Origin: Methylocapsa sp. D3K7
GTDB lineage: Bacteria; Pseudomonadota; Alphaproteobacteria; Rhizobiales; Beijerinckiaceae
Assembly (NCBI RefSeq): GCF_029855125.1
Contig: NZ_CP123229.1
Coordinates: 1,798,001 to 1,862,000 of the forward strand
Direction of reading: 5' to 3'
Length of the DNA: 64,000 nt
Part shown: positions 5,240 to 24,959 of the stretch, one piece after another
Position numbering within the stretch: the first letter of the stretch is position 1
Layout of the letters: every line of letters begins with the position of its first letter
Notes under the pieces: model-generated
Seen by the model: only the letters and a program-made list of their open reading frames with translations
The model's database searches: none
What the model was told of the DNA's origin: nothing
Translations under genes and position numbers: made by a program

Positions 5240-5380
5240 CCTCAGGCGATTTACGCCACAGCATCTTTTTCTATCCCAGAGACCGCTAAATCCTTATCGC
5301 ATAAGGGTTTTAGTTGCCCATGACCCTCCCCCTCCGTATCCTCGGCACACCCGGCGATTTCCTCTCTCGTGCTTCCCCCG

Positions 5381-5417: not shown

Positions 5418-5459
5418 GATTTTGGGGACAATGATGGAGCGATAGAGCAGGAACGGATT

Positions 5460-7897: not shown

Positions 7898-8401
7898 TCA
7901 TCTTGATGCCATCTCAAATCAGGGAAGAATAAGCTCATGATGTTGCGCTGTACTAACGGGTCTCGATTATGTGACGGGAAGACCAGCCGACTACGTCCAG
8001 GTCGACGAGATTGGCGGTCGTCTTGGTCTCAATATCCTACCCACCTATAATGTCAGCGAGAGTTGCAATCGCATCGGGAAACTCGGCCCCGCTCGGTTGA
8101 ACGGCCATAAGGGCGCGAAACAGCGGTGACGGGCCGGAAGCGGTCGGTCTGGTCTCGGGCGATCGCCCCAAGAAAGCGGTCGATCAGCGGGCATGTGTTG
8201 AATGGTAAGGTTCGACCCAAAACAGAATTTCAGCTCACAATACTCGGTGACGGAATTGGCCCAAGACATGGTGACAGTACCATTCCAAAAAATGATAACA
8301 CACCACTATTGACATATAATCAAATCGACTCAACACTGTAAGGCCTGATCCGCTCGCGCACCGGCGATGTGCGCTTTTGAGATGTAGCTGAGATCAGTAT
8401 C
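7898..8401. other. Non-coding stretch with a dispersed repeat
   Basis: No credible gene. It contains one copy of a 95-nt inverted repeat (8128-8222) and, nearer the next gene, an AT-rich stretch around 8285-8340 that may hold its promoter. A TTGACA hexamer is present there, but the TATAAT follows it without the required spacer. Confidence 0.5.
8128..8222 (-). repeat. Inverted-repeat family A, copy 1
   Basis: This segment, read on the minus strand, matches 19556-19649 on the plus strand with only about eight mismatches over about 94 nt. Neither copy codes for a recognisable protein. The two copies enclose 11.3 kb of the island. Confidence 0.75.
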
Positions 8402-9082: not shown

Positions 9083-9735
9083 GTCAGAGCGAGAACTTCT
9101 ACCCGGAGTCGTAAAAGTGCCGACGAGCATGAGCTCCCGGATCTTCGCGCACAGTGCATCTTGCCGACGACACAACATCAAGCGGGGAAGTGACGGGACC
9201 TCGAAGTCCGTCGGCCTAACTGGCATCACACAAACTATAAGCTGGTGCCCTATGCCTCGCGTCGTTTTAACAACGTAAAACTCGATAATTACTCACCGCA
9301 AAGCCAACTCCAGGAATCAGCGTACCTAAGGTACGGGCGAATCTCTGCTCAACACCCATGATGGTCGAAGGCCCTCGACGACGTAATGTCTGCCTTCGAG
9401 AAGAGAGCCAGTGCGGCTGAGTGACCAATATGGGCGCGAAACAGACTCAGCGGGCTGAAAGGGGATCGTCCGCTTGGGGACGCGATAAGGCAATTCCGGC
9501 CATTCCTTCGGCATCGTTCGTTGAACCGATAGGGCTCAGACTTGCCCGTTACGTCTCGCCAGCGTTGCGCCAATAGTCGATATCATATGCTGAGCAAAAC
9601 GAAGACACGTCGCGGAGGTACCGTCGCGGGATCAATTTGAAAGCGTACTGCCGTCACTCCAGTGGATTTCAATGACCATATGGCGCATGAGTGAAGTGTG
9701 AGCTGTCGCCGTACCGTCGGAACAGCTCGCCGCCT
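9083..9735. other. Non-coding stretch with repeat copy
   Basis: No supportable gene. It contains repeat family B copy 1 (9353-9437). Other short frames here lack ribosome sites and any recognisable sequence. Confidence 0.5.
9353..9437 (-). repeat. Inverted-repeat family B, copy 1
   Basis: 85 nt that match 13735-13819 in inverted orientation with four mismatches. The pair flanks the oxalate decarboxylase and gamma-glutamyltransferase genes and is nested inside the family A pair. Confidence 0.8.
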
Positions 9736-10176
9736 TTACCGCAGCGCAATTGCAAGCCCGCTCAGGTCGAGATTTGCAATCAAACCGATTTGTCGGCCTT
9801 CCAATTGCAAGACGGCGCCCTTGTCGTTGGCAAGTTGGATCAACCGTGCGCCAATCCCAACCGCGGCGCCGGCCCCGGCGGCGACATAGACTCCGGCGAC
9901 GTCCGACGGCCTGCGAATGTTGATGACCCGGCCAACCAAGGTCGTCTGCGACAGACCGAAGACGAGGCCAGCGTCTACACCGCCGACCGACAATCGGTAT
10001 CGCCGTCCGTGAAAGATCAGCGTGCCCCATCCTCCGTTCGCGCCGATGAACCAACCGCCCTTCACCACCGAAATGCGGACAATGCCGCTGTCAGCAGAGG
10101 CCCCGGATGAAATGCTCGCGCCAACCATAGCGACCAACGCGATAAGGCTGACACGGGCTCGGTGAGCAATTTGCAT
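9736..10176 (-). CDS. Small exported glycine-rich protein, function unknown
   Basis: 146 residues starting at an ATG with a purine-rich ribosome site (GGGAGAA) about 8 nt upstream. A signal peptide (LIALVAMVGASISSGASA) precedes a soluble domain of short beta-strands: GGWGTLIFHGRRYRLSVGG, VDAGLVFGLSQTTLVGRV, GVYVAAGAGAAVGIGARL, GAVLQLEGRQIGLIANL. This pattern (G-L-F-x-G-x-x-Y-x-L-x-V-G-G followed by a fibre-like end) resembles small periplasmic proteins of unknown function common in alphaproteobacteria, but I cannot name the family. Its divergent neighbour is the oxalate decarboxylase, 249 nt away, so the two may share a regulatory region. Confidence 0.65.
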   Translation of the reverse strand: MQIAHRARVSLIALVAMVGASISSGASADSGIVRISVVKGGWFIGANGGWGTLIFHGRRYRLSVGGVDAGLVFGLSQTTLVGRVINIRRPSDVAGVYVAAGAGAAVGIGARLIQLANDKGAVLQLEGRQIGLIANLDLSGLAIALR

Positions 10177-10425
10177 GTTGGAGTTCTCCCGGAAACCCTT
10201 GGGCGCAGCTCGGCAGCCTTAATCGGACTCCCCAGATGCCCCCGAACCGACGTGAATTGTAGACGTTCTCTGCGCTGATTGGAAGCGCGACCCGAGCCGA
10301 AACGGCTCATTGCCTGCTTCAACCTGGAGGCGGCCTTACCACGGCCCACGAGATCGGGGTACGACTTTGAAAAATCATGCGGTGACCCCTATAATGCGTA
10401 AAGCTGTGCTCGAGAGGAAGCTTTC

Positions 10426-11532
10426 ATGTTCTCGTCCAACATCCCGATCAGTTCGGAAGGCGGCGACAATAGTTTCCAGAATAATGTTCCCGACCCCGTG
10501 ACCTCGGGCACGGAGCTGCCAACCTTCAAATTCGAGCTGGAAAAATCCGAGGGGCGTGTGAGCTACGGCAGCTATGGCAAGGAGGCCACGGTGGTCCAAT
10601 TGCCGATATCGAAGGCTCTTGCCGGCGTCTCGATGCGCATGGAGCCTGGGGTGATGCGCGAGCTGCATTGGCATGCCACGGCGGCGGAGTGGGCATTTGT
10701 CACGGAAGGATCCGTGCGCACCACGGTGATCGACCCGCAGGGCTGCTCCGAGACCAATGACTTTGGTCCGGGTGACATCTGGTATTTTCCGCGCGGTCAC
10801 GCGCATGTCATCGAGACCTTGGGCGATACGCCGTGCCACTTCATCCTTGTCTTCGACAATGGATATTTTTCCGAATTCGGCACCTTCAGCATCACCGATT
10901 GGCTCGGCCATGCGCCCAAGGAATTGCTCGCCAAAAATTTCGGCGTTCCGGCTTCGACCTTCGAAAGTTTCCCCAAGAACGAGGTCTATTTCGCCAAGGG
11001 GAAAATCCCGCCGGCCGTCCCCTCCGTTCCTCTGCAAGGTTGGAAGGCGCCGCCGCTCACCCACAAATATAGTCTCCTCTCCCAGAAGCCGTATGAAATT
11101 TTCAACGGGGGTATTGAGTGGCGTGTCGATGGCTCGCAGTTTCCCATTTCCACCACCATGACAGGGGTCGTGCTGGAGATGGAACCGGGCGCTCTGCGAG
11201 AACTTCATTGGCATCCGAATGCCTCGGAGTGGCAATATGTGCTCAGCGGCAATTTCAACGTGACGCTCTTTGGCTCGAAAGGACGCTGGCGGCAGGAGAC
11301 TCTGAGCAAGGGCGATGTCGGCTATATTCCGCAGGGGTTCGGCCATTCGATTGAAAACGTCGGGCAAGACGAGGCCCGTATCCTCATCGTTTTCAACAAC
11401 GGCCATTACCAGACGATCGATCTGTCGCAATGGATTGCCGGAAATCCCCTCGACGTCCTCGCCACCAATTTCTCGCAAGAGGCGGCGGTCTTTGATAAAT
11501 TCCCGCGCAAGGATGTCTTCATCACGAAATAG
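10426..11532 (+). CDS. oxdC: Bicupin oxalate decarboxylase
   Basis: 368 residues with two cupin domains, each with the manganese ligands. First site: ELHWHATAAEW (His, His, Glu) and PRGHAHVIE (His). Second site: ELHWHPNASEW and GFGHSIENV. The lid between strands reads SEFGT where the classical Bacillus enzyme has SENST: the glutamate thought to act as proton donor is kept, two neighbours differ. The enzyme converts oxalate to formate and CO2 using O2 as cofactor, and formate is a useful electron source for a methylotroph. There is no signal peptide, so it is cytoplasmic. The ATG at 10426 follows GAGAGGAAG by 6 nt. It is intact, unlike many island genes. The next gene follows 56 nt later in the same direction. 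Confidence 0.9.
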   Translation: MFSSNIPISSEGGDNSFQNNVPDPVTSGTELPTFKFELEKSEGRVSYGSYGKEATVVQLPISKALAGVSMRMEPGVMRELHWHATAAEWAFVTEGSVRTTVIDPQGCSETNDFGPGDIWYFPRGHAHVIETLGDTPCHFILVFDNGYFSEFGTFSITDWLGHAPKELLAKNFGVPASTFESFPKNEVYFAKGKIPPAVPSVPLQGWKAPPLTHKYSLLSQKPYEIFNGGIEWRVDGSQFPISTTMTGVVLEMEPGALRELHWHPNASEWQYVLSGNFNVTLFGSKGRWRQETLSKGDVGYIPQGFGHSIENVGQDEARILIVFNNGHYQTIDLSQWIAGNPLDVLATNFSQEAAVFDKFPRKDVFITK

Positions 11533-11588
11533 CCGCATTGCCATAAGGGCTACAATTACTGACTTCAAGCCTGAGACCTGGAACCCGC

Positions 11589-13208
11589 ATGAAATCCTTC
11601 AATTTTCAACGCGCTCCAATTTTTGCAAAAAATGGCATGGCTTGTTCGAGCCAGCCTCTCGCTGCAGCCGTCGGCAGAGACATACTCAGGGCAGGAGGAA
11701 ATGCTGTGGATGCCGCAGTCGCGATGGCCGCAATGGTCAATATAACCGAGCCCATGATGAATGGGCTCGGTGGCGATTGCATGATGCTCGTACATTGGAA
11801 TGGCGCGTTTTTTGGGCTTAATGGCAGTGGTCGTGCGGGTTCCCGCCTGACCATCGACAATCTTTGCGCCGCAGGTTTTTCTTCTATGCCTAAGGCTGGT
11901 GCTGCGACCGTCACTGTCCCCGGCGCACTCGATGCCTACCTTGCACTGCACGACCGATTTGGGTCCATGGACCTTTCCGCGCTTGTTGAGCCTGCGGCAG
12001 CCTATGCCGAGGATGGCTTTGCGGTGAGCGCGAAGGTAAGCCAGGCGTGGAAGTGGGGGGCGTCGAAACTCCAGCGTTTCTCGCCCGACGCGAGCCCTTA
12101 CTTGCCGGGAGGTGAGGCACCGAAGGCCGGGCAGATTTTCCAACACAAAGACCTCGCGCGCACGTGGCGCTTGATTGCAAAGGGAGGTCGCGCTGCGTTT
12201 TACGGAGGCGAGGTTCGAGATCGCGTCCTCGACGCGTTGCAGAAGGCCGGAGGCTATTTGGAAATTGAGGACTTTGATCAGGTGCAAGCCGAGTGGGTCG
12301 AGCCAATCCGCGCCAGCTACCGGGGCCATACCATTTTGGAGCTCCCGCCAAATGGCCAAGGCATCGTGGCCCTCATGGCTTTAGGTATTCTTGAAGGCTT
12401 CGATTTGACGGGCCTTTTCAATGAGAATGAGGCTCAGGCCGGCCATTTGATAATCGAGGCCATCAAGCTGTGCTTTGCCGATGCGGAAAGGTACGTTGCC
12501 GATCCTCGCTTCGTAGAGATACCCGTGGAACGTCTCCTCTCGGCAGAGTACCTCGGGGGGCGTCGCGGCCTGATCGAGCGAGATCGTGCGCTCGATAATC
12601 CTCCTGCGGGCCGAGTCTATGGAGACACGACGTACCTCACGGTCGTCGATCGCGATCGCAATGCTGTTTCCCTGATTACAAGCATTTCCGACGTGTTCGG
12701 GTCCGGCATCATCGTTCCTGGAACCGGGATCATCCTCCACAATCGCGGGGCTGATTTTGAGATGAATGCAGCCCATCCGAATCATGCCGCTCCTGGCAAG
12801 CGTGTACGCCACACGATTATTCCCTCAATGATGCTTGCGCCCGATGGTTCACTAAAGCTGAGTTTTGGCTGTATGGGTGCTAATATGCAACCTCAGGGAC
12901 AGGTTCAGATCCTCGTCAATATCCTTGACCGCGGAATGAATCTGCAGCAGGCGGTGGATGCTCCGCGCGTGCGAGTGCTCGATGGTCATCGAATCTCCAT
13001 CGAGCAGCATCCCGATTCAAATTTTGCCGACGAACTCAAGGCTCTTGGACACGACATCGTCATAGGCGAGGAAATTCCCGCGGATTGGATGCTGCCTCAC
13101 GATTTCATGAGGTCCTTCGAGGGTAGCGCCCAGGCCATCGCTATTGATGGCGAATCCTTGTGTGGCGCCTCCGACCCTCGCCTCGATGGAATCGCAGTAT
13201 CTTGGTAA
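11589..13208 (+). CDS. ggt: Gamma-glutamyltransferase-family Ntn hydrolase
   Basis: 539 residues, the usual length. The family start is visible (NGMACSSQPLAAAVGRDILRAGGNAVDAAVAM), then NGLGGDCMML, PGALDAYLALHDRFG and the autoprocessing site, with the nucleophile threonine in GDTTYLTVVD near residue 350, followed by SLITSISDVFGSGIIVPGTG and the small-subunit end MQPQGQVQILVNIL, QQAVDAPRVRV. No signal peptide is evident, in contrast to the periplasmic enteric enzyme. These enzymes split gamma-glutamyl bonds of glutathione-like substrates or, in related branches, acylases or oxamate-type amides; the exact substrate cannot be read here. It follows oxdC by 56 nt and is probably co-transcribed. No lesion is seen. 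Confidence 0.85.
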   Translation: MKSFNFQRAPIFAKNGMACSSQPLAAAVGRDILRAGGNAVDAAVAMAAMVNITEPMMNGLGGDCMMLVHWNGAFFGLNGSGRAGSRLTIDNLCAAGFSSMPKAGAATVTVPGALDAYLALHDRFGSMDLSALVEPAAAYAEDGFAVSAKVSQAWKWGASKLQRFSPDASPYLPGGEAPKAGQIFQHKDLARTWRLIAKGGRAAFYGGEVRDRVLDALQKAGGYLEIEDFDQVQAEWVEPIRASYRGHTILELPPNGQGIVALMALGILEGFDLTGLFNENEAQAGHLIIEAIKLCFADAERYVADPRFVEIPVERLLSAEYLGGRRGLIERDRALDNPPAGRVYGDTTYLTVVDRDRNAVSLITSISDVFGSGIIVPGTGIILHNRGADFEMNAAHPNHAAPGKRVRHTIIPSMMLAPDGSLKLSFGCMGANMQPQGQVQILVNILDRGMNLQQAVDAPRVRVLDGHRISIEQHPDSNFADELKALGHDIVIGEEIPADWMLPHDFMRSFEGSAQAIAIDGESLCGASDPRLDGIAVSW

Positions 13209-13965
13209 CCGTTGCCGACTTGTTCGAGAGTCGGCGTGATGCCGTCGGCAACCTTCCGCCCTTGCACCAGATCTTCCTGATCAAATGGCTCCAGTCGTAC
13301 GCATCGTGGATAACGACGTATAGATCGAAATGATGCACTGGGAATGCCGGGGTCGCTGCCATATGGCGGCGCTCTGGTGACGGACATCCGCACTCTAAAA
13401 GCCCCGCATTAGGGGCGCTGGCTCGGGCCTGAAAGCCGCAGCATTGGAGCAAAAATGACAACTTCCCACCCATCATTGCCGTGAACACCCTTAGGGTGGA
13501 CGTCCGTTCTGGAGAAGCGGCAATGGTCGGTTGGACGGCCCAAATTGGCGCGAACGGGCCGAACGCGAATGCCAATTCGGGCCGGAAGCGGAATGGCAGC
13601 TTCCGGATAGGAAGTGAAAGCGGACGTCCCGTAGCACAACTCAGACGGCAAACTTCGATCCAACTACGTCGCTCAGGCGCTGATCAGCTCGTTCCGAAAG
13701 CAGTCGCAGCGCGGACAAACCGACCGGCGGTAGAGCGCCCAGATTGGTCACTCAGCCGCACTGGCTCTCTTCTCGAAAGCAGACATTACGTCGGCGAGGG
13801 CCTTCGACCATCACGGGTGGAAAGCGGCCATTTGCTCAACCCTGTTGAACGACGCCAGTGCGCCAATTGTAGCTTCTCGCCTCGCCGAGAAATCGCGAGC
13901 GAACTCCTGAAAGTGTCAACAATGCAATCTAATAAATTCGACGGTCATCAAAGTCACGGCTCGGC
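13209..13965. other. Non-coding stretch with repeat copy
   Basis: About 760 nt without a credible gene between two genes that converge. Contains family B copy 2 (13735-13819) and further GC-rich stretches rich in short inverted words (for example around 13500-13640) that look like more degraded repeat units. Confidence 0.5.
13735..13819 (+). repeat. Inverted-repeat family B, copy 2
   Basis: Inverse of 9353-9437, 81 of 85 positions identical. Confidence 0.8.
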
Positions 13966-16317
13966 TCACGAGTTTTGTGTTAGCCCGGAGACGGCGATGA
14001 GCAGGATCGCTCCCAAAGCCAGGCCTACGACGCCAAGGGCGGAGAATACAAAGACTTGCCAACCCTTGAGATACTTGCGCTCGGGATCGTTGAAGAAATC
14101 GGTGAGTTCCTTGTTGATCGGGATCACGGGCAAGAGCTGCGCCAGGCTGGCGCAGGTACACCAGATTGCTCCACGGTTTTTCGCCGCCGGAACGGTCGAC
14201 CAAAGCAGCGCGACGCCACCAAGCCAGAAGGCAAGCACCCAGGGTATAACTTTGAAAGTATGTGAGCCCAAGCCATAGCCGGCCACGGAGCCGAGCACGG
14301 TCTGAAGAATGCAGGAGCCCAGCCGGCCTTCCTCGCACGCCATCTCGCGTTCCCGCTCGCGGCGAAGATAGCGGATATCGTCGGCGGCATCACGGTCGCC
14401 TGCATTCGTGAAGGCGATCGCAAGTTGCGAGTAGATAGCCGGACTGTGGTGGGGATCGCGCCTTGCCCAATTGTCCCACCATTTCGCTTCCTGATCGTGC
14501 CCTTGCGGTCTGGTGTCTCCATCGATTCCGCCAAGGCGACCGAAAGTGAGGCCTTCGAGAAAAAGCTGACCCTTCGCAGGCCAGTCGTTCATCGCATCCA
14601 TCCGGCTGCCGATATGCACGTTATGCAAGTTCAAAGCGCCGTGTTTGCAGTCATTTCCGTTGCAGAGAGAGGAGTCATGTGCGCCCCCAAGTTTCAGGTC
14701 GGCGGCAATCGACGCGCCTGATAGATCAAGTCCCGCCAGACCGGCGCCACTGAGGTCGAGACTGCCGCCGATATGGGCCAGGCCCATATTGACCTGATCG
14801 GCGAAACGGCTATCGGGCATGTTCATATTGCCGCCCGCCTGCAAGAAGGACGCGTCCATAGCGCCCTCGAAGCTGGCGTCCGGTATTAGGATATTTCCCT
14901 CCACCTTGGAGCCCGTCAGAAACACCTGTTTGAATTTGACCTTGTTTGCCTTGTACTCCGATGGAGCTCCGGCGAGACGGGCGAAGTGCTCTAAACTTTC
15001 GGCGGTCTGCGATCCCATTCCTAGATTGCCACCGACTTTTAACAAGCCGGCGAACAACGGCCCATCGAAACTGGCGCCGATCATTAAGATATTTCCCGCA
15101 ATCGTTGCGCCATTGATATCCACAGTCTTGAAACTAGAACCCCGCCACCGGTCGGATTGCATGAGCAGATTGCCGTCAACATGCAGGGTTTCGCCATGTA
15201 GTGCGCCCTCGAAATCGGCGCCGCTCATGTCGAGCTTTCCCTTGATTTTCGCGCCGGTGAGATTCACCTCGTCGAAGGTAGTCCTATTGTCCGCGTCGGA
15301 TTGCATCGAGAGATCGCCGCCGACTTCTATGGAGGACGCGTTCAGCGTGCCATCGAAATGAGCGCCAGTCATGCTAACTTCTTGATTGATCCTCGCGCCG
15401 CTCAGAATCACACTCTTTAAGCTCGTCGTGTTTTGAGCCAAGGATCCCATGAACAGAGCGCCGCCGACCTGCAACAAACTGGCGTCCAGCGCCCCATCGA
15501 AACTGGCGCCGATGATGGAGACATTTCCCGCGATCCTCGCGCCGACAAGAGACATTCCCTTCTGGAAGCTGGTCTTGTTTGGTGGCAGGGAAGCCATCAA
15601 CAGATTGCCGCCAACCTCCAGGGCGGCGGCATTCAGCACCTCATTGAAGCTCGCACCGGGCATCATGAGTTGTCCATTGACTTTCGCGCCGCTAAGACTC
15701 ACCGAACTCTTAAAGCTGGCGCCGTTTAAAACAAGTTGTCCCGCGATCCGCACGCTGCCGAGACTCACCGCACTCTGGAAAACGGCGCCATTGCGGAGAT
15801 TCAAATCGCTGTCGGAATGCAAACCGTCCGCCAACAATTCGCCGCTCATCAGCGAGTCGTCGAGCTCGATTAGACTGTTGGTCTGCACGCGTGTCAGATC
15901 GATTTTGCCTTCAATGCGGCTGCCGTCGATCAGAATTGCCCGAATGAGGCTCGTATCCGTAAGATCGAGATTCCCGACAATCCGGGCACCTCCGATTCCG
16001 ATGCCTCCCAAGGGGGTTGCCTCCCGCCAAGGGGCTCGCGTCAACAAATCCTGCAGAAAGCGGGCAGAGAGTTTGCGGCAGCCGTCTTGCCAGCGCGGAT
16101 CCTTCTCGTCCCTGGGATCGATTATAGGCGTGCGACAGTGAGCGTTGAAGTCGGCCGCTTCACCCCGCTTGATCTGTGACCAAGCCCACCCCTCGGCGGT
16201 TCCGGGGTCGTCATAGAGCTCACGCGCCACAGTTGCGTCGAGCGAGACCAGCGACAGCCCCAGAAGCGAATATGAGCAAACTAATAACGCGCCGGCCGTG
16301 CCACGCATTTTCCGCAT
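13966..16317 (-). CDS. Large exported beta-helix-like repeat protein with C-terminal membrane segments
   Basis: 783 residues. A signal peptide or anchor (residues ~5-30) is followed by a small helical domain (WSQIKRGEAADFNAHC, ARFLQDLLTRAPWRE), then from ~105 to ~590 a long array of repeats of about 20 residues built as GARIxGNLxMxGASFDG, ALDASLLQVGGNLLM, alternating with KTSFKxVxLxGA. This regular leucine/isoleucine-glycine spacing suggests a right-handed beta-helix akin to pentapeptide-repeat proteins. A TPR-like helical section (IYSQLAIAFTNAGDRDAADDI) and two transmembrane helices (~690-715 and ~755-778) end the protein. Similar architectures are annotated as pentapeptide-repeat or membrane-associated proteins without known function. 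It is intact. Upstream on the minus strand I see no convincing promoter. Confidence 0.7.
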   Translation of the reverse strand: MRKMRGTAGALLVCSYSLLGLSLVSLDATVARELYDDPGTAEGWAWSQIKRGEAADFNAHCRTPIIDPRDEKDPRWQDGCRKLSARFLQDLLTRAPWREATPLGGIGIGGARIVGNLDLTDTSLIRAILIDGSRIEGKIDLTRVQTNSLIELDDSLMSGELLADGLHSDSDLNLRNGAVFQSAVSLGSVRIAGQLVLNGASFKSSVSLSGAKVNGQLMMPGASFNEVLNAAALEVGGNLLMASLPPNKTSFQKGMSLVGARIAGNVSIIGASFDGALDASLLQVGGALFMGSLAQNTTSLKSVILSGARINQEVSMTGAHFDGTLNASSIEVGGDLSMQSDADNRTTFDEVNLTGAKIKGKLDMSGADFEGALHGETLHVDGNLLMQSDRWRGSSFKTVDINGATIAGNILMIGASFDGPLFAGLLKVGGNLGMGSQTAESLEHFARLAGAPSEYKANKVKFKQVFLTGSKVEGNILIPDASFEGAMDASFLQAGGNMNMPDSRFADQVNMGLAHIGGSLDLSGAGLAGLDLSGASIAADLKLGGAHDSSLCNGNDCKHGALNLHNVHIGSRMDAMNDWPAKGQLFLEGLTFGRLGGIDGDTRPQGHDQEAKWWDNWARRDPHHSPAIYSQLAIAFTNAGDRDAADDIRYLRREREREMACEEGRLGSCILQTVLGSVAGYGLGSHTFKVIPWVLAFWLGGVALLWSTVPAAKNRGAIWCTCASLAQLLPVIPINKELTDFFNDPERKYLKGWQVFVFSALGVVGLALGAILLIAVSGLTQNS

Positions 16318-17051
16318 AAGTTATTTGTCCTGACGGAACGCGGATCTATTGTTAGCCTAAACCCACCCATGGGCTTCGTCAAAGTCGCGATAGAGCGAGA
16401 ACTTTTGCAAAAGGGATTTGCTATGCGGCGCTTGATGGTCGCCCTTTGGGTCCGAATCAGCTATTGAGTACCCGGTCGCCGGATGACCGCTCCTGGCGCT
16501 CAACGTAAGTGCCAGCACGGCTCGCGTCCGTCAGCTTTCCGACTCAGTACGGAAAACATAAGTGCGTAGCGTTAAAGTTCGACTCAGAGTTCTAGATGAC
16601 AGGAATTGCCTGCGGAAATTCACCCGATGATTCTTGCATTCGTCCTCGTAGCCGGATGGTAAGAATCTGGCCGAGCGCGAAGAGCAGTTTGCGCGCCAGG
16701 GGCAGGCTGCTCTGCTCGAATGCCGGACCAACACACGCGTCCAGAGCACAGCTTAAGATGTCCAGTCTTCTTTCGGCATCAAACGTCGCTTTCACCCTCG
16801 AAGACCTATGGCAAAAACGTTGCCGTCGGGCTGCTCTCCTTCTCGCTCACAGAAGGTCGACGAGGGGGGCTCGTCATCAACGCGAAGCTTTTTAGCGAAG
16901 GTGGGGTACCTTGGATGGGTCATGATTTGGAGGCTGATATGGGCTCCAATACGAAGGAAACGAATGTGGGTGTGAGCCCGTACTTTGTGGCTGTTACATT
17001 CCTCTTGTGAGAGGAGTTTTAGGAACGTGGACGATGACCATTCACCGTTGC
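16318..17051. other. Non-coding stretch
   Basis: About 730 nt with no credible gene on either strand. Short frames lack ribosome sites and protein-like composition. It separates the beta-helix gene from the small zinc protein module. Confidence 0.45.
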
Positions 17052-17077
17052 GCGCTACATCTGTTTGGATGTAGCGC
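17052..17077 (+). terminator. Perfect 10-bp hairpin (terminator or leader hairpin)
   Basis: GCGCTACATC and GATGTAGCGC are exact inverses around a 6-nt loop (TGTTTG), followed after about 10 nt by a short T run (CTTTTG). It could end an upstream transcript or act in the leader of the small gene that starts 61 nt later. Stem strength is high, the T run is weak. Confidence 0.45.
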
Positions 17078-17138
17078 TCGGTACAACTTTTGCCTCAATG
17101 TTGGTGTTTCTTTTGAGATTGGTATTTAGGAGAGAGTG

Positions 17139-17324
17139 ATGGCGCACTTTCGATTTGAACCGCCTCGGATTAATACAGACGAAGCGAAACAACGTGGTGC
17201 CTACTGCCACGAATGTCTTTCGCGGTTCAATGCAAGCGAAGCGCGATATCGATATGGCACTAAGCATTTCCACAAGGAGTGTGCCAGGAAATGGCTGCAG
17301 CGAGAGATGGCTCAGTGCGGATAG
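17139..17324 (+). CDS. 61-residue LIM-like zinc-finger mini protein
   Basis: Starts at the ATG at 17139, 5-6 nt after a strong ribosome site (TTTAGGAGAGAG); a GTG directly before it is possible. The cysteine and histidine spacing Cys23-x2-Cys26-x18-His45-x2-Cys48 fits half of a LIM-type zinc finger (C-x2-C-x16-23-H-x2-C), with an extra His43 and Cys60. The rest is basic and aromatic (EARYRYGTKHFHKECARKW), as in small nucleic-acid- or protein-binding zinc modules. No close family is recognised. It lies between a strong hairpin and a tRNA-like gene (48 nt downstream) in the same direction, so the three may be one small transcription unit of phage or plasmid origin. Confidence 0.65.
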   Translation: MAHFRFEPPRINTDEAKQRGAYCHECLSRFNASEARYRYGTKHFHKECARKWLQREMAQCG

Positions 17325-17372
17325 TTCTTTAGGCGGCCATCGAAAGACCGGCCGCTTTGTTTGGAAATTATC

Positions 17373-17444
17373 GCGGAGTCGTCTAACGGCAGGACAAGGC
17401 GTCTTAGACGCTTGTATTGGGGTTCGATTCCCTACTCCGCACCA
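17373..17444 (+). tRNA. tRNA-like gene with UUA anticodon position (suppressor-type or degenerate)
   Basis: 72 nt that fold as a cloverleaf with encoded CCA. Acceptor GCGGAG/CTCCGC (6 bp, A73, CCA), D-arm with GG and the usual A14/A21, a canonical T-arm (TGGGG-TTCGATT-CCCTA) and a 4-nt variable loop. The anticodon arm AGGCG/CGCTT encloses the 7-nt loop TCTTAGA, which puts TTA at positions 34-36, so it would read UAA and perhaps UAG by wobble. Oddities: the acceptor is one pair short, base 33 is C in place of the near-universal U, and 32-38 and 33-37 can pair, collapsing the loop to TTA. It could be a suppressor tRNA of a mobile element, or a tRNA relic. The D-arm resembles Glu/Gln tRNAs. Confidence 0.6.
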
Positions 17445-17721
17445 ACTATTTGCAGAAAATTTTTGGCCTATCCCTCACAAGTGCCGGTCCGCAATGCCGC
17501 GTCACTGCGTCTGCTCCCCCCTTGTTCTGTCGGCAAACCAGCCATTGGCGCCGCAAATGCGTCGCTGGTCACTACGGACACGCTGCGGGCTGCGTTCCAC
17601 CGGACTTCGGCTGCGTCACAGACGCCGCACAGAAATAGGCACAGGAGAAACTCGCCAGGGTCGTGCCAAACGCTTCTCGTCGATGATACGACAAAGTTAT
17701 CTTCAATCTTGCTAAGTCGGC

Positions 17722-19272
17722 TTAAAGAGTATTGAGGAAATTGACCAAGTCTGTTTTCTGTTGGTCCGTGAAACCGATGCTAAACCGCTTGTCATAAAAG
17801 TTCACGGCATCGATCAGTGTGGCGGCGGAGCCGTTGTGGAAATAGGGCGCACGGGCAGCTATCCCCCGTAGGATGGGTCCCTTGAGCCTGCCGATGTCCT
17901 GACACTTCCCCGAAATCAACGCTTTTCCTGGATCAGTGACGGTATAAATATTTCCCGCAAGCGGACCTCGCTTGCAGGTAAGCGTGAAAACCGGCAGTCC
18001 CGATATGTCGAGCGCTGGAGGACTTTTGACGCCCGCATCGGCGATGCCAATGTTCAAAGGTGCTTTGACCGAATGATCGCCGACATTGGGTGCGTCGTGA
18101 CACGTACCGCAAAATCCCTGGATGACTGGCGTGTTCAGATCGTCGTTCAGGCCCGCGACTCCGGTGATATTGATTTTTATGGTGTTGAATATTTTCTCAC
18201 CACGGGCGACCGACTTGCGAGCTTCCGTGTCGCTATCCAATCCGCCCCGCAGTGTTAACCAAGGCTTGTAGAGGTTGAAAATATTGGGGTCGAAGGGCGA
18301 GCCCGTGGGATTCATTCCCAGCGGATCGTTGATTCCGATAAAGAATTTCTGTACCGACAGTGCGGCAGGGCCGCCTGTGGCGCCGCGAGTATTCAAATCA
18401 TGGGCCTGCGCGTCGAAGCTTTGAGCAACAAAAACGCCGGTTTCGAAGGCCACCATCCGCGCTTGCTGAGCCGTCGTCGGCGCGGCGTTTGCCTGCGCAT
18501 GGATAAGTGTGGCGTCCATGGATTGAGAAGCCAGGCTCGGCTCGCGTCCATCCCACATGAACGTGGAAAGAAAGCCGAGATTGGCCGATGGAAGCGGACG
18601 CCGGTAAATGGACACCAGCCCGGTCGTTGGTGTCGTCAGCATCGTGCAATGGTAAGGATCGTCGACTGATGTGACCTCAAACTGCAGTATCGCCGCCGCC
18701 GGCAGCGGCAGGCCAATCCGGATTAGACCTTTTTCGAGCAGCAGTTTATAGGACTGGCTCTTGGCCGCGAGCGAAGAGACATCGTCGGTTGGGCAGGAAG
18801 CACCGTCGATCAAACGGAAAATCGGATCGGCGCCCGCGCTAGAATCAAACCGTTTGCGAACGCTGGCCGCGCTGACGGTCCACCCATTCTGGGGCTGATG
18901 ACAGGTAAAGCAGGTGCGCCCATTCGTCCCTAAATTCTGAAAAAATGGGTTTAATGCCGTAAATGTGGGACCGCCGGGCTGGAGGGTTGCGACCTTGCCG
19001 TTGGGATCGGCATCGACTTCGGACCTCGGAATGATGGCCGGTGTCGGTTGCGAGCCATGGTCGGCATCTTGATGAATGCGCATCTTCTGCGCGTGCTCGA
19101 TCGCGCCTGGCGCCCACGCTCGTGCTCCCAGTGTATCGGTGCTGACGGCATTTTGTGCAGAGGCCGGGCAGCCGATGACCAGGGACAGGCTGATGGCAAG
19201 TCCCGTGGCGATAACGACCGCCGACTTAGGTATAGACGTTACAACAGTAGCTAAAGGCAATCCTTTTTGCAT
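17722..19272 (-). CDS. Exported di-haem cytochrome c peroxidase/MauG-family protein
   Basis: 516 residues. The ATG at 19272 follows GGGGGAGG by 7 nt. A signal peptide (AVVIATGLAISLSLVIGCPASA) directs it to the periplasm. Two c-type haem sites are visible: CFTCHQPQNGW near residue 120 and CGTCHDAPN near 390. The C-terminus carries the family's RAPYFHNGSAATLIDAVNFYDKRF and the helix QQKTDLVNFLNTL. The middle contains FMWDGREPSLASQ, as in other members. Such enzymes reduce peroxide or, like MauG, carry out oxidative maturation of partner proteins; which applies here cannot be told. The length (about 150 longer than classical CcpA) places it in the large unstudied branch. No lesion. It ends close to the tRNA-like gene, pointing toward it. 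Confidence 0.85.
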   Translation of the reverse strand: MQKGLPLATVVTSIPKSAVVIATGLAISLSLVIGCPASAQNAVSTDTLGARAWAPGAIEHAQKMRIHQDADHGSQPTPAIIPRSEVDADPNGKVATLQPGGPTFTALNPFFQNLGTNGRTCFTCHQPQNGWTVSAASVRKRFDSSAGADPIFRLIDGASCPTDDVSSLAAKSQSYKLLLEKGLIRIGLPLPAAAILQFEVTSVDDPYHCTMLTTPTTGLVSIYRRPLPSANLGFLSTFMWDGREPSLASQSMDATLIHAQANAAPTTAQQARMVAFETGVFVAQSFDAQAHDLNTRGATGGPAALSVQKFFIGINDPLGMNPTGSPFDPNIFNLYKPWLTLRGGLDSDTEARKSVARGEKIFNTIKINITGVAGLNDDLNTPVIQGFCGTCHDAPNVGDHSVKAPLNIGIADAGVKSPPALDISGLPVFTLTCKRGPLAGNIYTVTDPGKALISGKCQDIGRLKGPILRGIAARAPYFHNGSAATLIDAVNFYDKRFSIGFTDQQKTDLVNFLNTL

Positions 19273-19744
19273 TGTTTCCTCCCCCTAACGAAGTTGCGGT
19301 TGCAGGTCTGTACAGGCCTGTACTTCGTTCACGAGTCCTCCGCGTAGCCCAGTCCTTTCACGTCTAGATCGCGTTGAGGCTTTGGTTTAAATTGTCACGA
19401 AATCGTTTCCGGCGCGCCCCCTTATCAGGGGACGCCAGAGCCCGCGCCGATGGCTTGGAATTCGGACGATCGATTGGAATACGCCGCCGCCTACCGACGT
19501 GATGGCAACAATCGGAGACCGCGCAGGGTCAGCTTGCGCCAAAGCTTATTTCCGCTTTGGGTCGAACCTTACCATTCAACACGTGCCCGCTGATCGACCG
19601 CTTCCTTGGGGCGAGAGCCCGAGAGTAAACCGACCGCTTCCGGCCCGTCGCGAAGCGGGCTGGTGGCCTTCGTCCGATAAGTCCACTTCAATTGCAATTT
19701 TCCTTTGCGTAGCTGCCAAATTGCGCCTTCAGGTAGACTGCGCT
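19273..19744. other. Non-coding stretch with repeat copy
   Basis: Upstream region of the di-haem peroxidase; contains family A copy 2. No gene and no clear promoter seen. Confidence 0.45.
19556..19649 (+). repeat. Inverted-repeat family A, copy 2
   Basis: Plus-strand match to the inverse of 8128-8222, about 90 percent identical by eye, sharing words such as GTCGAACCTTACCATTCAAC. Confidence 0.75.
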
Positions 19745-20206
19745 TTGGGGTGTACAACGGCTAAGAAGACACTGACGCTGCATCTTGGAAAGACGAGTAT
19801 CGAGGCGTTCGAGGATGTCTTTTCCGAGGAAGCCTCACTCAAACTCAGACATCAGTCGACCAGGAGGGTGGACGATCTAAACTTCGGTGATGGCGCTCGC
19901 CTCTATGTATTCGTTAGAGATAATCACACGCCGAAGTGGCTCACGGAAGTAAGACGCCACTTTGATGTGCAGGGCCATTTAGCGACCAGTTCGGCTGCTG
20001 GCGGTCTACTTTTTTGGACAGTCAATCGCCTGTTTGCATCTACATTTGCGCACGGTTGGATGTACTTGCTCGTCTCGCCTTGCTCCCAAGAGCGGAACCT
20101 GTGTCGGGCGAATGCCAATTCCCGCGCGAGCATTTACCGCGCCTATCTGTCCGCTTCCCCAAAGTGGCGTTGTTCCTGCTCAAGGGTGATTGCAACGATT
20201 TGCTGA
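19745..20206 (+). pseudogene. N-terminal remnant of a TIGR04141/DUF6119-type sporadically distributed protein
   Basis: From about 19745 the frame reads TTAKKTLTLHLGKTSIEAF, then a lysine/arginine/aspartate-rich stretch, LYVFVRDNHTPKWLTEVRR, and SSAAGGLLFWTVNRLFAST, FAHGWMYL. This matches the opening of the TIGR04141 family: a KKTLYLL-like start, a 'W...l..ff' segment and a 'grlFaltFG.g..l' strand. A full member is over 500 residues; here the homology stops at about 20068 and the frame continues with unrelated sequence to a stop. Members of this family have patchy distribution and are often found in mobile or defence-associated regions, which agrees with this place. It is a relic without its core. 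Confidence 0.55.
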
Positions 20207-20249
20207 TTCGAGGTGTTAAACTTCAGAAAGGACCTCGCACATCAAGCGA

Positions 20250-22085
20250 ATGGGGCCAATTATGCATCTGTGCTTGCGGATTTGCGTGGTCCTCGCCGTC
20301 GGCTGGGTTTTGCGAGCGCAGGCAGCTCCTTTCGTCCCGGAATCCGATAGTCAGATCCTTGAACGGTTGCCATTTACAGCGAGCGATCCAGCGATTCGCG
20401 TTCTCCGCGCCTTGAACGCCCGCCTAAAGGATGAGCCGAACAATTTGCCCCTCGCGCTTCGCGTCGCCCGCGGCTACCTGGAGTTGAGCCGCGCTACGAG
20501 CGATCCGCGTTACGCCGGATACGCACAAGCAGCGCTCGCCCAGTGGTGGGCACTCCCGCATGCACCGAAGGAAGTGCTCATCCTGCGCGCCACATTGCGT
20601 CAGCGCGCGCACCAGTTCGACGCTGCCTTGGTAGATTTGGCAACGGTTCTGGAAAACGACCCCCGCAATGCCCAGGCGCGGCTCATACGAGCAACAGTAC
20701 TGCAAGTGGTGGGCAATTATCCTGGCGCCCGAGACGAATGCCTCGCACTTCGGAAGCTGACGCAGGAACTGGTGTGGACTGCCTGTCTCGCAAGCGTAAA
20801 TGGGGCCACCGGACATTTGCGGCAAAGCTACGATGAATTGTTGACTACGCTCGATCAGTTCCCCGACAGCCAGCGGCAGCTTCGAAGCTGGGTTCTGACC
20901 AGTCTGGCCGAAATGTCAGCGCGCGCTGACATGGCTGGGCCAGCGGAAGCGCATTTTCGTGACACCTCCACCATCGACGCCACGGACGCATACCTTCTCG
21001 GGGCCTATGCCGACTTCCTGCTAGACCATCACCGGCCACGCGAGGTTTTGCAATTGTTGCGCGATCACACTCGCGCGGACCCTCTCCTGTTGCGCTACGC
21101 GCTTGCCTTGCAAGCCGAAGGATCACCTGAACTGCCAGCTCAAGTAGAGCAGCTGCGTGATCGCTTCACTGGGCAGCGTGCCGAGACGTTCTATATCGAT
21201 CTTGGCGCGGTGTTCGATACGCTGAATTTGCGCCGCTATCTTCCAGCGTTAACTGTCGCCGAGGATGCCGACAACGTCAATCCATTCGGTGTCAACCGTT
21301 TCAGTGGTTTCAATATCAGTACCATTGCGATCGAAGTCCCCATTACCCGTGTCACCAGCGATGGCAAGACTGCTGCGGCGACTATCAATCCGGTTATTGG
21401 CATATATGCCGAGACCGACCGGCGCGTGGTAAGTGGATTGCGAAACTCATTTGAACAAGTCTCTCGCATGGCCAATCCACTCGTAAATGAGCTCATCATC
21501 AATACGCCATTCAAGGACAAATGGAACGCCTCCGAGCCGGAAAACGAGGCGAACTTTCAGTCGTTTTACAAGAATCCGGTAATTGCCACGGAACTGAAAC
21601 TGGTCTTCAATCAAGACATTGTACCCATAGACGGTTCTGCGGCCAACAACCGCACCGACCTCATGAACATTCTGCTCAAATACCCTGGCCAACCTTTGAG
21701 CGCTACCAATTGCGGGGTTCCATGCGCGGAACTGTTGCGGCTTGACTTGCGCGTACCGCCGACTGCACCGGAGACCCAGAGCCGTCTCGGCTCCGCGTTG
21801 AGCGCGGATAAGGCGGGCTGGCCGAACGGACGGCGGCCCAATGACGACGTCACAGATATTGCAATCCGCGTGGTTGGGGGCAAGAACTACATCGCCGCGC
21901 ATATCGGCGATGGCGTCAACTTCCTTGCCGGCGCTCCCGGAGTTGTTGGCACCGATATAACCGCGAATGGCATAGCCAAGATCTTTCCATTCCTGCCTAC
22001 CCCCTACGACGGCAAGAACCGCCGACATGTCGATTGCGGCGAGACCGGACCCGGTGGTAAATCCTGCGGGCCGCTCGTGCCTTGA
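20250..22085 (+). CDS. TPR protein fused to the C-terminal half of a DUF4331 protein
   Basis: 611 residues (an ATG at 20262 gives a shorter signal peptide: LRICVVLAVGWVLRAQA). Residues ~30-305 are helical TPR-like repeats (ALRVARGYLELSRATSDPRYA, ILRATLRQRAHQFDAALVDL, ARLIRATVLQVVGNYPGA). At about residue 307 (nt ~21172) the character changes to the second half of a DUF4331 protein: GQRAETFYIDLGAVFDTLN, TIAIEVPITRV, NPLVNELIINTPFKDKWNAS, PNGRRPNDDVTDIAIRV. In many bacteria DUF4331, a TPR protein and a HupE/UreJ protein are separate neighbouring genes. Here one deletion or rearrangement seems to have joined two of them in frame, since the N-terminal DUF4331 half is absent. Whether the chimera works is unknown. 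Followed by the HupE gene. Confidence 0.7.
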   Translation: MGPIMHLCLRICVVLAVGWVLRAQAAPFVPESDSQILERLPFTASDPAIRVLRALNARLKDEPNNLPLALRVARGYLELSRATSDPRYAGYAQAALAQWWALPHAPKEVLILRATLRQRAHQFDAALVDLATVLENDPRNAQARLIRATVLQVVGNYPGARDECLALRKLTQELVWTACLASVNGATGHLRQSYDELLTTLDQFPDSQRQLRSWVLTSLAEMSARADMAGPAEAHFRDTSTIDATDAYLLGAYADFLLDHHRPREVLQLLRDHTRADPLLLRYALALQAEGSPELPAQVEQLRDRFTGQRAETFYIDLGAVFDTLNLRRYLPALTVAEDADNVNPFGVNRFSGFNISTIAIEVPITRVTSDGKTAAATINPVIGIYAETDRRVVSGLRNSFEQVSRMANPLVNELIINTPFKDKWNASEPENEANFQSFYKNPVIATELKLVFNQDIVPIDGSAANNRTDLMNILLKYPGQPLSATNCGVPCAELLRLDLRVPPTAPETQSRLGSALSADKAGWPNGRRPNDDVTDIAIRVVGGKNYIAAHIGDGVNFLAGAPGVVGTDITANGIAKIFPFLPTPYDGKNRRHVDCGETGPGGKSCGPLVP

Positions 22086-22194
22086 ACCGGTGCTTCAGGC
22101 GCGGTCTACGTAACGTGAAGCGTGGATCGCGCCTCGGCACGGAGGCAATTGAACAACAATTCCATATTTGGCTTCGAAAATTAGCGCGGGCGGG

Positions 22195-23324
22195 ATGCGG
22201 CGTTTCGTTTTCATCTTGGCACTGATGCCATGGGCCACAACCGCCCAAGCCCATAAGCCTAGCGACAGTTACACTGCGCTTTCCGTACAGGATGAACGCG
22301 TGAACGGGCAATGGGACATTGCGCTGCGCGACCTCGACTTTGCCATTGGGCTCGACGCCGACGGCAACGGCGAGATCACCTGGGACGAAGTCAAGGCCAA
22401 GCGCAGTGAGATCATTGCTTACGCCATGGCAAGACTGGCGATCGACGCCGACGAAGCGAATTGTCCCATCACCAACACCGGGGAATTGATCGACAATCAC
22501 AGCGATGGAGCTTACGCGGTTCTGCGCTTCGCTGCGAAATGCCCGCACAAAGCCAAAGATTTGTGGGTGACGTATCGCCTGTTCTTCGACATCGACCCGC
22601 AGCACAAAGGCCTTCTGCGCTTAGAGAAGGACGGCAAGACGCGCACAGCAATTTTCGGCCCAGATACCGCCCGGCAAATGTTCAGCTTAGACAATCACAA
22701 CACTTGGCGACAATTTCGCGACTATCTTGCGGCTGGCGTCGAGCACATTTGGACGGGATACGACCACATTCTGTTCCTGCTTTCGCTACTGTTGCCGGCT
22801 GTCATCGTGTCTGACATCAAGAGATCGAAGACACCGAGCCAAGGATTTCGCGCCGCCTTCCTCGACGTCTTGAAGATCGTGACCGCATTCACGCTCGCGC
22901 ATTCGATGACGCTCGCTCTTGCGACACTTCGAATCGTGAGCATTCCGGCGCGTATAACTGAATCCGCGATTGCATTGTCAGTGGTGCTCGCGGCCCTCAA
23001 TAATCTCTATCCCGTCGTTTACGGCAGGCGCTGGACGGTGGCCTTCGGCTTCGGCCTCATCCATGGCTTTGGTTTTGCAAGTGTCCTCACGGATCTTTTG
23101 CTCCCCGAAGGGCCCTAGCACTGGCCCTCGCAGGCTTCAACCTGGGTGTGGAAGTTGGGCAGATCGCGATTGTTGTAGCATTCCTACCGCTCGCCTATTT
23201 GATGCGTCACACTTGGCTTTACCGGCGTTTCGTCTTTGTGGGAGGCTCCGGAACCATTGTTATCATCGCGGCGCTTTGGTTTCTCGAGCGATCCTTGGAT
23301 CTTCGATTCCTCCCTATCCACTAA
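22195..23324 (+). pseudogene. HupE/UreJ-family membrane protein with a frameshift
   Basis: The ATG at 22195 gives the signal peptide MRRFVFILALMPWATTAQA followed by HKPSDSY, typical of this family. A periplasmic domain (to ~170) contains a calcium-type loop DADGNGEITWDE; then come membrane helices with the signature EHIWTGYDHILFLLSLLLP, TAFTLAHSMTLALA and FGFGLIHGFGFASVL. The frame stops at 23116-23118 right after LLLPEGP. One base earlier the frame continues perfectly: LALALAGFNLGVEVGQIAIV, AFLPLAYLMRHTWLYRRF, to a stop at 23322-23324. A single-base frameshift at about 23112-23116 thus removes the last two or three helices. HupE/UreJ relatives are putative nickel/cobalt transporters. It follows the TPR-DUF4331 chimera by 109 nt. 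Confidence 0.8.
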
Positions 23325-23799
23325 TGATATGTGGTGTTGTACTGTTAATAAGTTACCTTGTTAAGCTGATTAACAGAACACAATCGCCGTTTATATCGCC
23401 AATTTTTTGGAGAGAGAGCCGCACTTCTTCGGAAGCGCGTAGGAGTGAAATCTGAAGAAAACGTACACTAAATTCTTGAGCGCAAATTCCAACAATGGCT
23501 GCTTTGGGTCAAACCCGGACCGCTGGATCAAATCAAATGACGTCCGCTTCTGCGTGCTGATGGATCCAGAACTGACCGACTGCTCTCGGACCAGCCACGC
23601 CATAGACAGAATGACCGCTTTCCGAGTTGCAAGCTCGCAAGCGGAGAGGCAGAAAGCCACCCATCCTAGCCGTCTATGCCTCCCAGCCGGATGTCCGCTT
23701 CGGATCAGCGGTGCCGTTGGACCGAACGGCAGAGATGGGCGCTCTGAAGTCGGCACCCTAACTTCGTGAACGACTGCTTGTAAGAATCGGAATCTAGTC
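23325..23799. other. Non-coding stretch
   Basis: No credible gene. It contains CCGCTTT/GTCCGCTTC-type words that recall the repeat families elsewhere in the island but without a long match. Confidence 0.4.
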
Positions 23800-24054
23800 T
23801 TGGAACGACCAGGTTGGGTCGAGCCGACGAAGGCGCTCATCGAGCGCGCGGCGCAGCTCGAGCGGCGCAAGCTGACGGACTTCTGTATGACTGCGCTCAC
23901 CGGCGCCGCGCGCCGGACTATCGCGGGGCATGAGACAATTGTCTTGTCCGAGCGGGACCGTGCCACCTTCTTCCACACGCTCGTCAATCCGCCTACGCCG
24001 AGCGAGCGGCTTCAACGTGCGTTCGCGCAGCACAAGCGGCGAGTCGTGCGGTGA
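23800..24054 (+). CDS. DUF1778/TacA-type antitoxin, N-terminus possibly truncated
   Basis: 84 residues from a TTG at 23800; no better start is present. The body follows the TacA pattern: KALIERAAQLERRKLTDF, a helix with AARRTIAGHETIVLSERDRAT, then FFHTLVNPPTPSERLQRAF and a basic tail. TacA antitoxins are ribbon-helix-helix repressors that bind and neutralise the partner GNAT toxin. The first ten residues (MERPGWVEP) do not match the usual VRVSPE strand that makes the DNA-binding ribbon, so this copy may have lost its N-terminus or its first exon-like part by mutation. The stop TGA is immediately followed by the toxin's ATG, the standard arrangement. Confidence 0.65.
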   Translation: MERPGWVEPTKALIERAAQLERRKLTDFCMTALTGAARRTIAGHETIVLSERDRATFFHTLVNPPTPSERLQRAFAQHKRRVVR

Positions 24055-24579
24055 ATGGCGCGGAACACATCGGCGGAGCTTCGGATCGTGCTGCTCAACG
24101 ACGGCCACGATCGGAGCGGGTTCACCTGCGGGGTCGAAAGCCTGGATCGCTACCTCAAGACCCAGGCAGGCCAGGATGTCCACCGGAAGGTGAACGCCGT
24201 CTTTGTGCTAAGCCTGGAGGCCGTGCCCGCGCGCGTGCTCGGCTACTATACTCTTTGCGCGATGGCGATCTCCCAGGGCAAGGTGCCGTAGGCCGCGCGG
24301 AAGCACGTCCCGCGCTATCCGCTAGTCAGCGCGACTTTGATTGGTCGGCTGGCGGTCGCCAAGGACCGGCAGGGAGAGCGTCTCGGTTCTATCCTGCTGG
24401 CGGACGCACTGCAACGCGCGTTCGAAAGCGCGGATACGGTGGGCTCGTCGATGGTGATCGTCGACGCGCTGGTCGAAGCGGCGACGGGTTTCTACAAGGC
24501 GCATGGCTTCGTGCGATTGCTGGACTCGCTCCGGCTTGTGCTGCCAATGCGCTTGGCCGGCGGGAGGTCTGAGCGATGA
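24055..24579 (+). pseudogene. TacT-type GNAT toxin with one in-frame TAG
   Basis: 174 codons plus stop starting directly after the antitoxin. The N-terminus matches TacT enzymes (CGVESLDRYLKTQAGQD, RVLGYYTLCAMAI). At 24289-24291 (codon 79) a TAG interrupts KVP-AARKHVPRYPL; the same frame then carries the rest: RLAVAKDRQGERLGSILLAD for acetyl-CoA binding (the usual second glycine of QGxGLG is Arg) and ATGFYKAHGF with the catalytic-type tyrosine. TacT toxins acetylate charged tRNAs and halt translation. No other lesion is seen, so the gene is inactive unless the amber codon is read through. GAG to TAG would be a one-base change at this place. Confidence 0.75.
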
Positions 24580-24884
24580 GGTTGGGATCCGCCTCACGAT
24601 CCTCACCGGGGAAGCATTCGGGCAAGCAAAATGGGCCCCGCCTCGGCGTCAGGGGAAGCACGGACGCATCCAAAGCAAGTCTTCACCGTGGCCTGCGGCA
24701 GCTCCCGTTGCGACCTGTCGTGCGGGCGGAAAGCCGTGGTTTCGGGACGCTGCCCATGCCGAACGCAGCCGTTAGCACGCTGCTTTTCGCTCCCCCCTGC
24801 TTCCCCGGTTCTTGGGCGGGGTTCGGGGAAGAAAAAAACGGCCACGACGGACCGTTCTAAGTATCTAATTTTATTGATGAAATT
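24580..24884. other. Right edge of island, non-coding
   Basis: Holds a CTTCCCCG/CGGGGAAG inverted repeat (24800-24831) like that near the left att copy. No gene seen. Confidence 0.4.
24800..24831. repeat. Inverted repeat near right att site
   Basis: CTTCCCCG (24800-24807) and CGGGGAAG (24824-24831), 8 bp exact with a 16-nt loop. The same words make the 11-bp repeat at 5381-5417. The spacing to the att copy differs, so a role in recombination is only a suggestion. Confidence 0.45.
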
Positions 24885-24932
24885 TGGAGCGGGCGAAGGG
24901 ATTCGAACCCTCGACCCCAACCTTGGCAAGGT
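24885..24932 (-). repeat. Right attachment-site copy inside tRNA-Gly
   Basis: Direct repeat partner of 5192-5239; 45 of 48 positions match. Because this copy keeps the tRNA complete, integration did not harm the host. Confidence 0.8.
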
Positions 24933-24959
24933 TGTGCTCTACCCCTGAGCTACACCCGC
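24885..24959 (-). tRNA. tRNA-Gly (GCC)
   Basis: 75 nt on the minus strand including encoded CCA. Acceptor GCGGGTG/CGCCCGC with discriminator T, D-arm GCTC...GAGC, anticodon arm CAACC-TTGCCAA-GGTTG with anticodon GCC, and T-arm GTCGAGGGTTCGAATCCCT. All invariant positions look right, so this is the working gene. Its 3' 48 nt are the right attachment copy of the genomic island, whose body lies on its 3' side, the normal arrangement for tRNA-targeting integrases. Plus-strand reading of this locus gives the well-known spurious GEGIRTLDP peptide, which is not a gene. Confidence 0.95.

Follow-up and report, generated by a model that had tools for sequence, protein, structure and literature searches.

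Within a 64,000-nucleotide stretch of the Methylocapsa sp. D3K7 genome (the window, in whose numbering coordinates are given unless stated otherwise), an island at a tRNA-Gly(GCC) gene carries a tRNA-like gene with the anticodon UUA, which raises the question of whether a mobile element here encodes a natural suppressor tRNA or whether the locus is a degenerate tRNA. The original prediction left both options standing. The evidence from the attachment repeat and from the phage-type body supports an origin in a mobile element, and a loss of function fits better than suppression. We consider it probable that a phage-type tRNA-Gln(UUG) was imported with, or into, the tRNA-Gly(GCC) island and altered at both of its working ends, and that it is most likely out of decoding.

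Fold and deviations of the tRNA-like gene

The gene and its anticodon loop are located as follows.

17373-17444, + strand: tRNA-like gene with anticodon UUA, C33 and encoded CCA (ARAGORN, Rfam)
17403-17409, + strand: anticodon loop TCTTAGA (tRNA positions 32-38), with UUA at 17405-17407 and C33 at 17404

The tRNA-like element first noticed in the letters at this site is called by both ARAGORN, as tRNA-Stop(tta) at 17372-17443 on the + strand, and Rfam, as an RF00005 match at 17372-17442; both calls count in C1 and so start at 17372, the gene being otherwise given from 17373. The covariance model accepts the element at 41.5 bits, above the gathering score of 29 (E-value 3.4e-7 for the whole 4.15-Mb, one-contig genome), which counts for a real tRNA fold. 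The gene, present in a single copy in the host genome, ranks 46th of the 51 RF00005 matches genome-wide, beneath 45 that score at least 49.9 bits and above weak matches, some of which are 3' scars of host tRNAs. A chance fold was rejected on this score, on the fold energy, which lies 2.6 standard deviations under dinucleotide shuffles, and on a degenerate tRNA pattern, designed with the element in view, that matched once in the window and in 0 of 100 shuffles.

Two side observations concern the host tRNA set. The 3' tRNA fragments L048, L049, L051 and L052 (Thr, Thr, Val and Gly), near 633708, 1903212, 1917135 and 289690 of the genome, are likely the scars of other integrations. Two tRNAs with a CAT anticodon were read among the host RF00005 matches, where three is the usual number; this is probably a miss of the loose first look.

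The T-arm, the D-arm and the CCA (17442-17444) are where they had been placed from the letters, as is the stop-reading anticodon UUA at positions 34-36 of a 7-nucleotide loop with C33. In the ARAGORN register, the 5' part comprises C1 and GCGGAG, U8 and C9, the D-arm GUCU-AACGGCA-GGAC and A26; the anticodon arm AGGCG-UCUUAGA-CGCUU, with loop bases U32, C33, U34, U35, A36, G37 and A38, is followed by the variable loop GUAU; and the 3' part comprises the T-arm UGGGG-UUCGAUU-CCCUA, then CUCCGC, A and CCA. Outside the anticodon loop the body is intact: 12 of 12 invariants, which are textbook tRNA positions, are present, as are 20 of the 21 pairs of the cloverleaf.

The deviations lie in the anticodon loop and at the acceptor end. 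C33 replaces the canonical U33, T33 being present in all 45 other host tRNAs. According to older work, C33 can be tolerated in amber suppression. At the acceptor end, C1 stands opposite A72 or, in the other register, the first pair is G1-C72; with the CCA in its normal place this pair is G17373-C17440, and the acceptor then has 6 pairs. ARAGORN draws a 6-bp acceptor and a 5-bp T-stem, RNAfold a 7-bp acceptor that takes in U17379-A17434 and a 4-bp T-stem, two drawings that arise because A17434 can pair either way. The 6-bp acceptor of the original prediction thus stands in the one drawing and gives way to 7 bp in the other; in both, acceptor and T-stem stack 11 pairs and not the canonical 12. 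The statement that bases of the anticodon loop can pair is true, but the property is ordinary and not diagnostic: among the 45 host tRNA loops, 33:37 can pair in 38, 32:38 in 13 and both in 10, so that self-pairing was rejected as a sign of decay. These counts exclude the gene itself and the weak pseudo-tRNA L050, and never included four further weak Rfam matches without an ARAGORN tRNA.

Relationship to phage tRNA-Gln

No host tRNA resembles the gene, and a duplicate or scar of a host tRNA was rejected on this ground. Scars of integration are present in the genome, as the Thr, Thr, Val and Gly 3' fragments and one Gly scar in the window attest, and the gene might be another, a copied tRNA end completed by chance. 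The known host scars are, however, near-exact copies of host 3' halves, whereas the gene is a whole tRNA for which the best host identity is with Met (56 matches in a 79-column alignment), making this explanation highly improbable. That integrative elements leave tRNA-like calls is an artefact warned of in the available portion of one report (PMC9897764); the gene is like the fragments described there in being a low-scoring tRNA call in an island, and unlike them in having a whole cloverleaf that is not a host tRNA copy.

By contrast, bodies of this type occur in phages. In a blastn search of phage records, the top match by E-value, among the best 20 of 60, is a locus in Synechococcus phage S-CRM01 that is annotated as tRNA-Gln (E 1e-6; 82% across 61 nt) and shares 51 of 70 positions with the gene; ARAGORN says Ser(tga) for this phage gene, yet its loop, CTTTGAA, reads UUG. 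Patterns made from the window's own D-arm, which show the company of that D-arm and not an unbiased ranking, gave the following results: 34 viral contigs contain the exact D-arm plus GGTTCGA when any anticodon is allowed, of which 32 have UUG, one has UCC of Gly type and one has another; all 51 viral contigs matching a TTN-anticodon pattern have UUG; and a class-level search of 384 other genomes found a similar tRNA (up to 3 mismatches) in five, all with Gln anticodons (UUG in three, CUG in two). Over the 52 positions beyond the D-arm, viral relatives match the gene at 34 at best and at 26.8 on average, and the nearest viral anticodon loops differ from that of the gene at 2 of 7 positions. The host tRNA-Gln genes carry other D-arms.

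When viral tRNAs of the same layout are compared, those identical over 70 positions being entered once, the 1:72 pair is intact in 43 of 43 and T33 is present in 42. The exception, L065:6487-6560 (- strand) in a viral contig, is a tRNA-Gln(UUG) with C33 and G37 and an otherwise complete cloverleaf. Viral contigs L189, L190 and L191 carry a tRNA that shares the 5' acceptor strand and the D-stem with the gene and that has C1 opposite A72, the anticodon CAT and an A-A mismatch in its acceptor.

The gene is thus like the phage-encoded tRNA-Gln(UUG) of type TCGTCTAAYGGYAGGACA (S-CRM01; IMG/VR loci L056-L106 and L109-L137) in its D-arm, layout, short variable loop and T-loop. It departs from this class in lacking the UUG/CUG anticodon and U1-A72 with G73: it has UUA, C33 and 11 instead of 12 stacked pairs, and it stands alone in a chromosomal island, outside any tRNA cluster. 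On this comparison we conclude that the gene has the body of a phage-type tRNA-Gln, with a changed anticodon loop and a changed acceptor end.

The search for conserved homologues that the original prediction had proposed spoke against its suppressor option: BLAST found no homologue of the gene in 197 other relatives, and a CTTAGA-loop pattern, with up to 3 mismatches allowed, matched in 0 of 396 other genomes of the order; among these sets and the class-level search, no homologue with covarying stems came to light. A YTTAR-anticodon-loop pattern had no match in viral contigs and one in genome contigs, to an unrelated Glu-like tRNA of a Coprenecus MAG. This tRNA (L107:5363-5437, - strand) is well formed, with anticodon UUA and T33, and is flanked by genes for a class I E/Q synthetase and for ribosomal protein S20; it may reflect an assembly error. 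In the literature searched neither this element nor an island-borne UUA tRNA of its kind was found, which is not proof of absence.

The island and its genes with in-frame UAG

The island edges, the sequences immediately upstream of the gene and two genes interrupted by UAG are the following.

5192-5239, no strand assigned: attachment repeat at the outer island edge, the far copy of the 3' end of tRNA-Gly(GCC)
24885-24932, no strand assigned: matching stretch within the intact tRNA-Gly(GCC) gene (24885-24959, - strand), at the other island edge
17136-17324, + strand: ORF of the zinc mini-protein (62 aa, or 61 when counted from the ATG at 17139)
17331-17362, + strand: terminator-like hairpin with tail TGTTT (hairpin 17331-17357, -14.6 kcal/mol)
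7241-7897, + strand: gene for a MocA/MobA-like nucleotidyltransferase, interrupted by one in-frame UAG (7319)
24055-24579, + strand: GNAT gene interrupted by one in-frame UAG (24289), adjoining a TacA-like antitoxin gene (23800-24054)

The placing of the gene inside an island was borne out, in that a 48-bp direct repeat of the tRNA-Gly(GCC) 3' end (94% identical, copies 19,693 bp apart) lies on both sides of it, as in an integrative island at tRNA-Gly. None of the genome's 17 PF00589 integrase matches falls between the repeats, which therefore enclose no tyrosine integrase by this measure. In the same genus, 11 stretches of 1.5 to 19.9 kb at tRNA-Gly gave no tRNA-like calls beyond tRNA-Gly and two tRNA-Arg; none of the 11 matches the sequence left of the repeat in the window, so that none attests an empty site. 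The 1-kb bin at 17001-18000 has the lowest G+C in the window (0.527). Other observations on the island include inverted repeats of approximately 100 nt (8128-8227/19550-19649, 91%; 9337-9437/13735-13835, 89%) and a cupin gene (10426-11532) with a 99% identical copy at G000:C1:3698022-3699128.

The tRNA-like gene begins 48 nt past the zinc mini-protein ORF, the distance originally reported. Among 5.8 billion proteins the mini-protein has a single relative, identical to it at 56 of 61 residues (92%) and encoded on a 1,816-bp metagenome contig, and no predicted protein overlapping the tRNA site beside that relative was found; the mini-protein has no match in Pfam or PHROGs and none in the 197 relatives, and a plasmid search with the 331-nt stretch of zinc ORF plus tRNA gave no match. 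A phage home for the mini-protein was rejected, its one pattern match in viral contigs being unconfirmed. Between the ORF and the tRNA-like gene sits the hairpin with its T-tail, ending 10 nt upstream of the latter; it is unlisted in the formal terminator scan because its loop exceeds the limit of 8. A promoter scan found none, the chance expectation being just 1.0.

It may be asked whether the tRNA-like gene, folded yet non-standard in its anticodon loop and lying so close downstream of the zinc ORF, is an RNA structure kept for a non-decoding role, e.g. a tRNA-like processing mark or the 3' end of the zinc mini-protein transcript. The T-tailed hairpin already separates the two, however, and the arrangement was not encountered a second time, the mini-protein having its one relative and none in the 197 relatives; we regard such a role as decidedly unlikely.

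A Pfam domain scan of the island (5240 to 24884, both strands, all frames, stops as X) returned the two genes with a single UAG, which are otherwise open, and one frameshifted gene. The latter is HupE-like (22168-23455), with a frameshift near 23107 and a HupE_UreJ_2 match over two adjoining frames. A working, probably weak, natural suppressor for UAA and UAG might serve the island itself or a phage that formerly carried the tRNA. The two genes with one in-frame UAG each count in favour of this possibility, and their sequences bear on it in opposite ways. For the GNAT gene, of which matches existed in 178 plasmid records and 36 of 99 genomes, the UAG site holds Glu in all three homologues examined. 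After the UAG, dN/dS against two homologues is 0.11 and 0.14, like the 0.12 between those intact copies, and amino-acid changes number 9 on the window branch and 7 on the G002 branch, with no excess; the stop is therefore either young or read through, which leans towards a suppressor. The nucleotidyltransferase scores 137.5 bits against TIGR03310, below the cut-off of 186.45, and matches were present in 48 of 60 genomes. In the 10 homologues examined, out of 13 fetched loci, its UAG site holds Glu in five, Asp in two, Ala in two and Thr in one. Singleton changes in columns that are otherwise uniform number 15 in this gene and 7, 5, 5, 2 and 0 in five homologues, a pattern that resembles relaxed selection and argues against readthrough by a suppressor. 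Stop reassignment across the whole genome was also rejected: none of the 48 PF00005 (ABC) matches has an inner stop, and among the 30 listed reading frames several terminate with UAA or UAG, inside as well as outside the island, so that no sign of reassignment is seen. The island genes that themselves end in these codons thus count against a suppressor as well.

Charging, possible suppression and probable loss of function

Bacterial Gln identity, as set out in the accessible part of PMC9976931, comprises G73, U1-A72, G2-C71, G3-C70, G10, U34, U35 and G36. The gene keeps G10, U34 and U35 and, in the ARAGORN register alone, G2-C71. The same portion of that work describes A73 with U35 as a Lys-type set that misacylates some amber suppressors, and the gene has both, so that Lys would be a candidate should any charging occur; it also describes an indirect route in which Gln-tRNA is made from Glu-tRNA by an amidotransferase that relies on U1-A72 (PMC9976931). 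A Gln-type tRNA without U1-A72 might thus keep Glu.

With these elements in view, the case for a working suppressor can be weighed. Its UUA is an ochre suppressor anticodon, as the ARAGORN call has it, its body is intact in 20 of 21 pairs, and C33 is found in a phage tRNA-Gln too; yet C33 and the 11-pair stack also tell against function, its identity set is incomplete for every synthetase, a hairpin lies upstream and it is without a homologue in the sets searched. Phages offer precedents, e.g. the UCA tRNA of Agrobacterium phage Atu_ph07, and the reported suppressor tRNAs, as far as the portions consulted of two reports extend, are of UCA type or are treated in general terms (PMC6102473, PMC13092985). 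The gene shares an anticodon complementary to a stop codon with the natural suppressor tRNAs that phages, and organisms whose stops are reassigned, encode, and differs in that its own genome is without sign of reassignment and in being known here from sequence alone. It resembles the allo-tRNAs and tRNA-Sec, among which an ochre anticodon is mentioned for 9/3 allo-tRNAs in the part of PMC7609411 at hand, in departing from the 7/5 form; those tRNAs, however, stack 12 or 13 pairs and carry a long variable arm (PMC7609411), whereas the gene stacks 11 and has a short arm. Overall, we judge a working suppressor unlikely.

Bolder still is the proposal of a Glu-inserting suppressor derived from a phage tRNA-Gln, by which the island would supply both the stop-marked genes and the tRNA that decodes them. 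The UUA anticodon would read UAG and UAA, the loss of U1-A72 would block the conversion of Glu-tRNA to Gln-tRNA by the amidotransferase so that Glu stays, and the UAG sites of the two island genes, mostly Glu in homologues, would match Glu insertion. The proposal presupposes indirect charging of tRNA-Gln in the host, and we hold it to be a long shot. If it were true, the island would carry a private stop-codon decoder together with matched stop-marked genes, and local code change by mobile elements would become directly testable.

The reading that we prefer is an imported tRNA-Gln that is losing its function. The gene is well folded, yet altered at sites that working tRNAs need, making this likelier than a working suppressor, and C33, the missing U1-A72, the 11-pair stack, the upstream T-tailed hairpin and the lack of a homologue all favour it. 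The anticodon loop would have changed from U33 to C33 and from UUG to UUA, and the acceptor end would have lost U1-A72 and become one position short. With U1-A72, G73 and G36 missing, charging with glutamine and amidation would fail; C33 and the 11-pair stack would weaken what function remained, and transcription from upstream would mostly stop at the hairpin before the gene. The fold, the body class, the deviations, the island edges and the lack of close homologues in the sets searched are observed directly; the direction of change, the loss of charging and the lack of transcription are what we infer from these features. The setting of this proposed loss is an island with an attachment repeat and no PF00589 integrase, in which another gene is frameshifted and two more are interrupted by an in-frame stop.

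Three results weigh against decay. The phage tRNA-Gln with C33 (L065) has an otherwise complete cloverleaf, the nearest viral anticodon loops are only 2 of 7 positions away, and in simulated runs 4, 5 or 6 random substitutions left the body this intact in 12%, 7% and 3.5% of cases, so that the change would be recent or not random, while a reading of early loss is neither strongly rejected nor strongly favoured by the simulation. The best reading is therefore of a gene recently altered and at an early stage of loss. If this is right, a phage-type tRNA on its way to being lost would here have taken on a stop-reading anticodon in passing, and the locus would serve as a warning for automatic 'tRNA-Sup' calls in islands.
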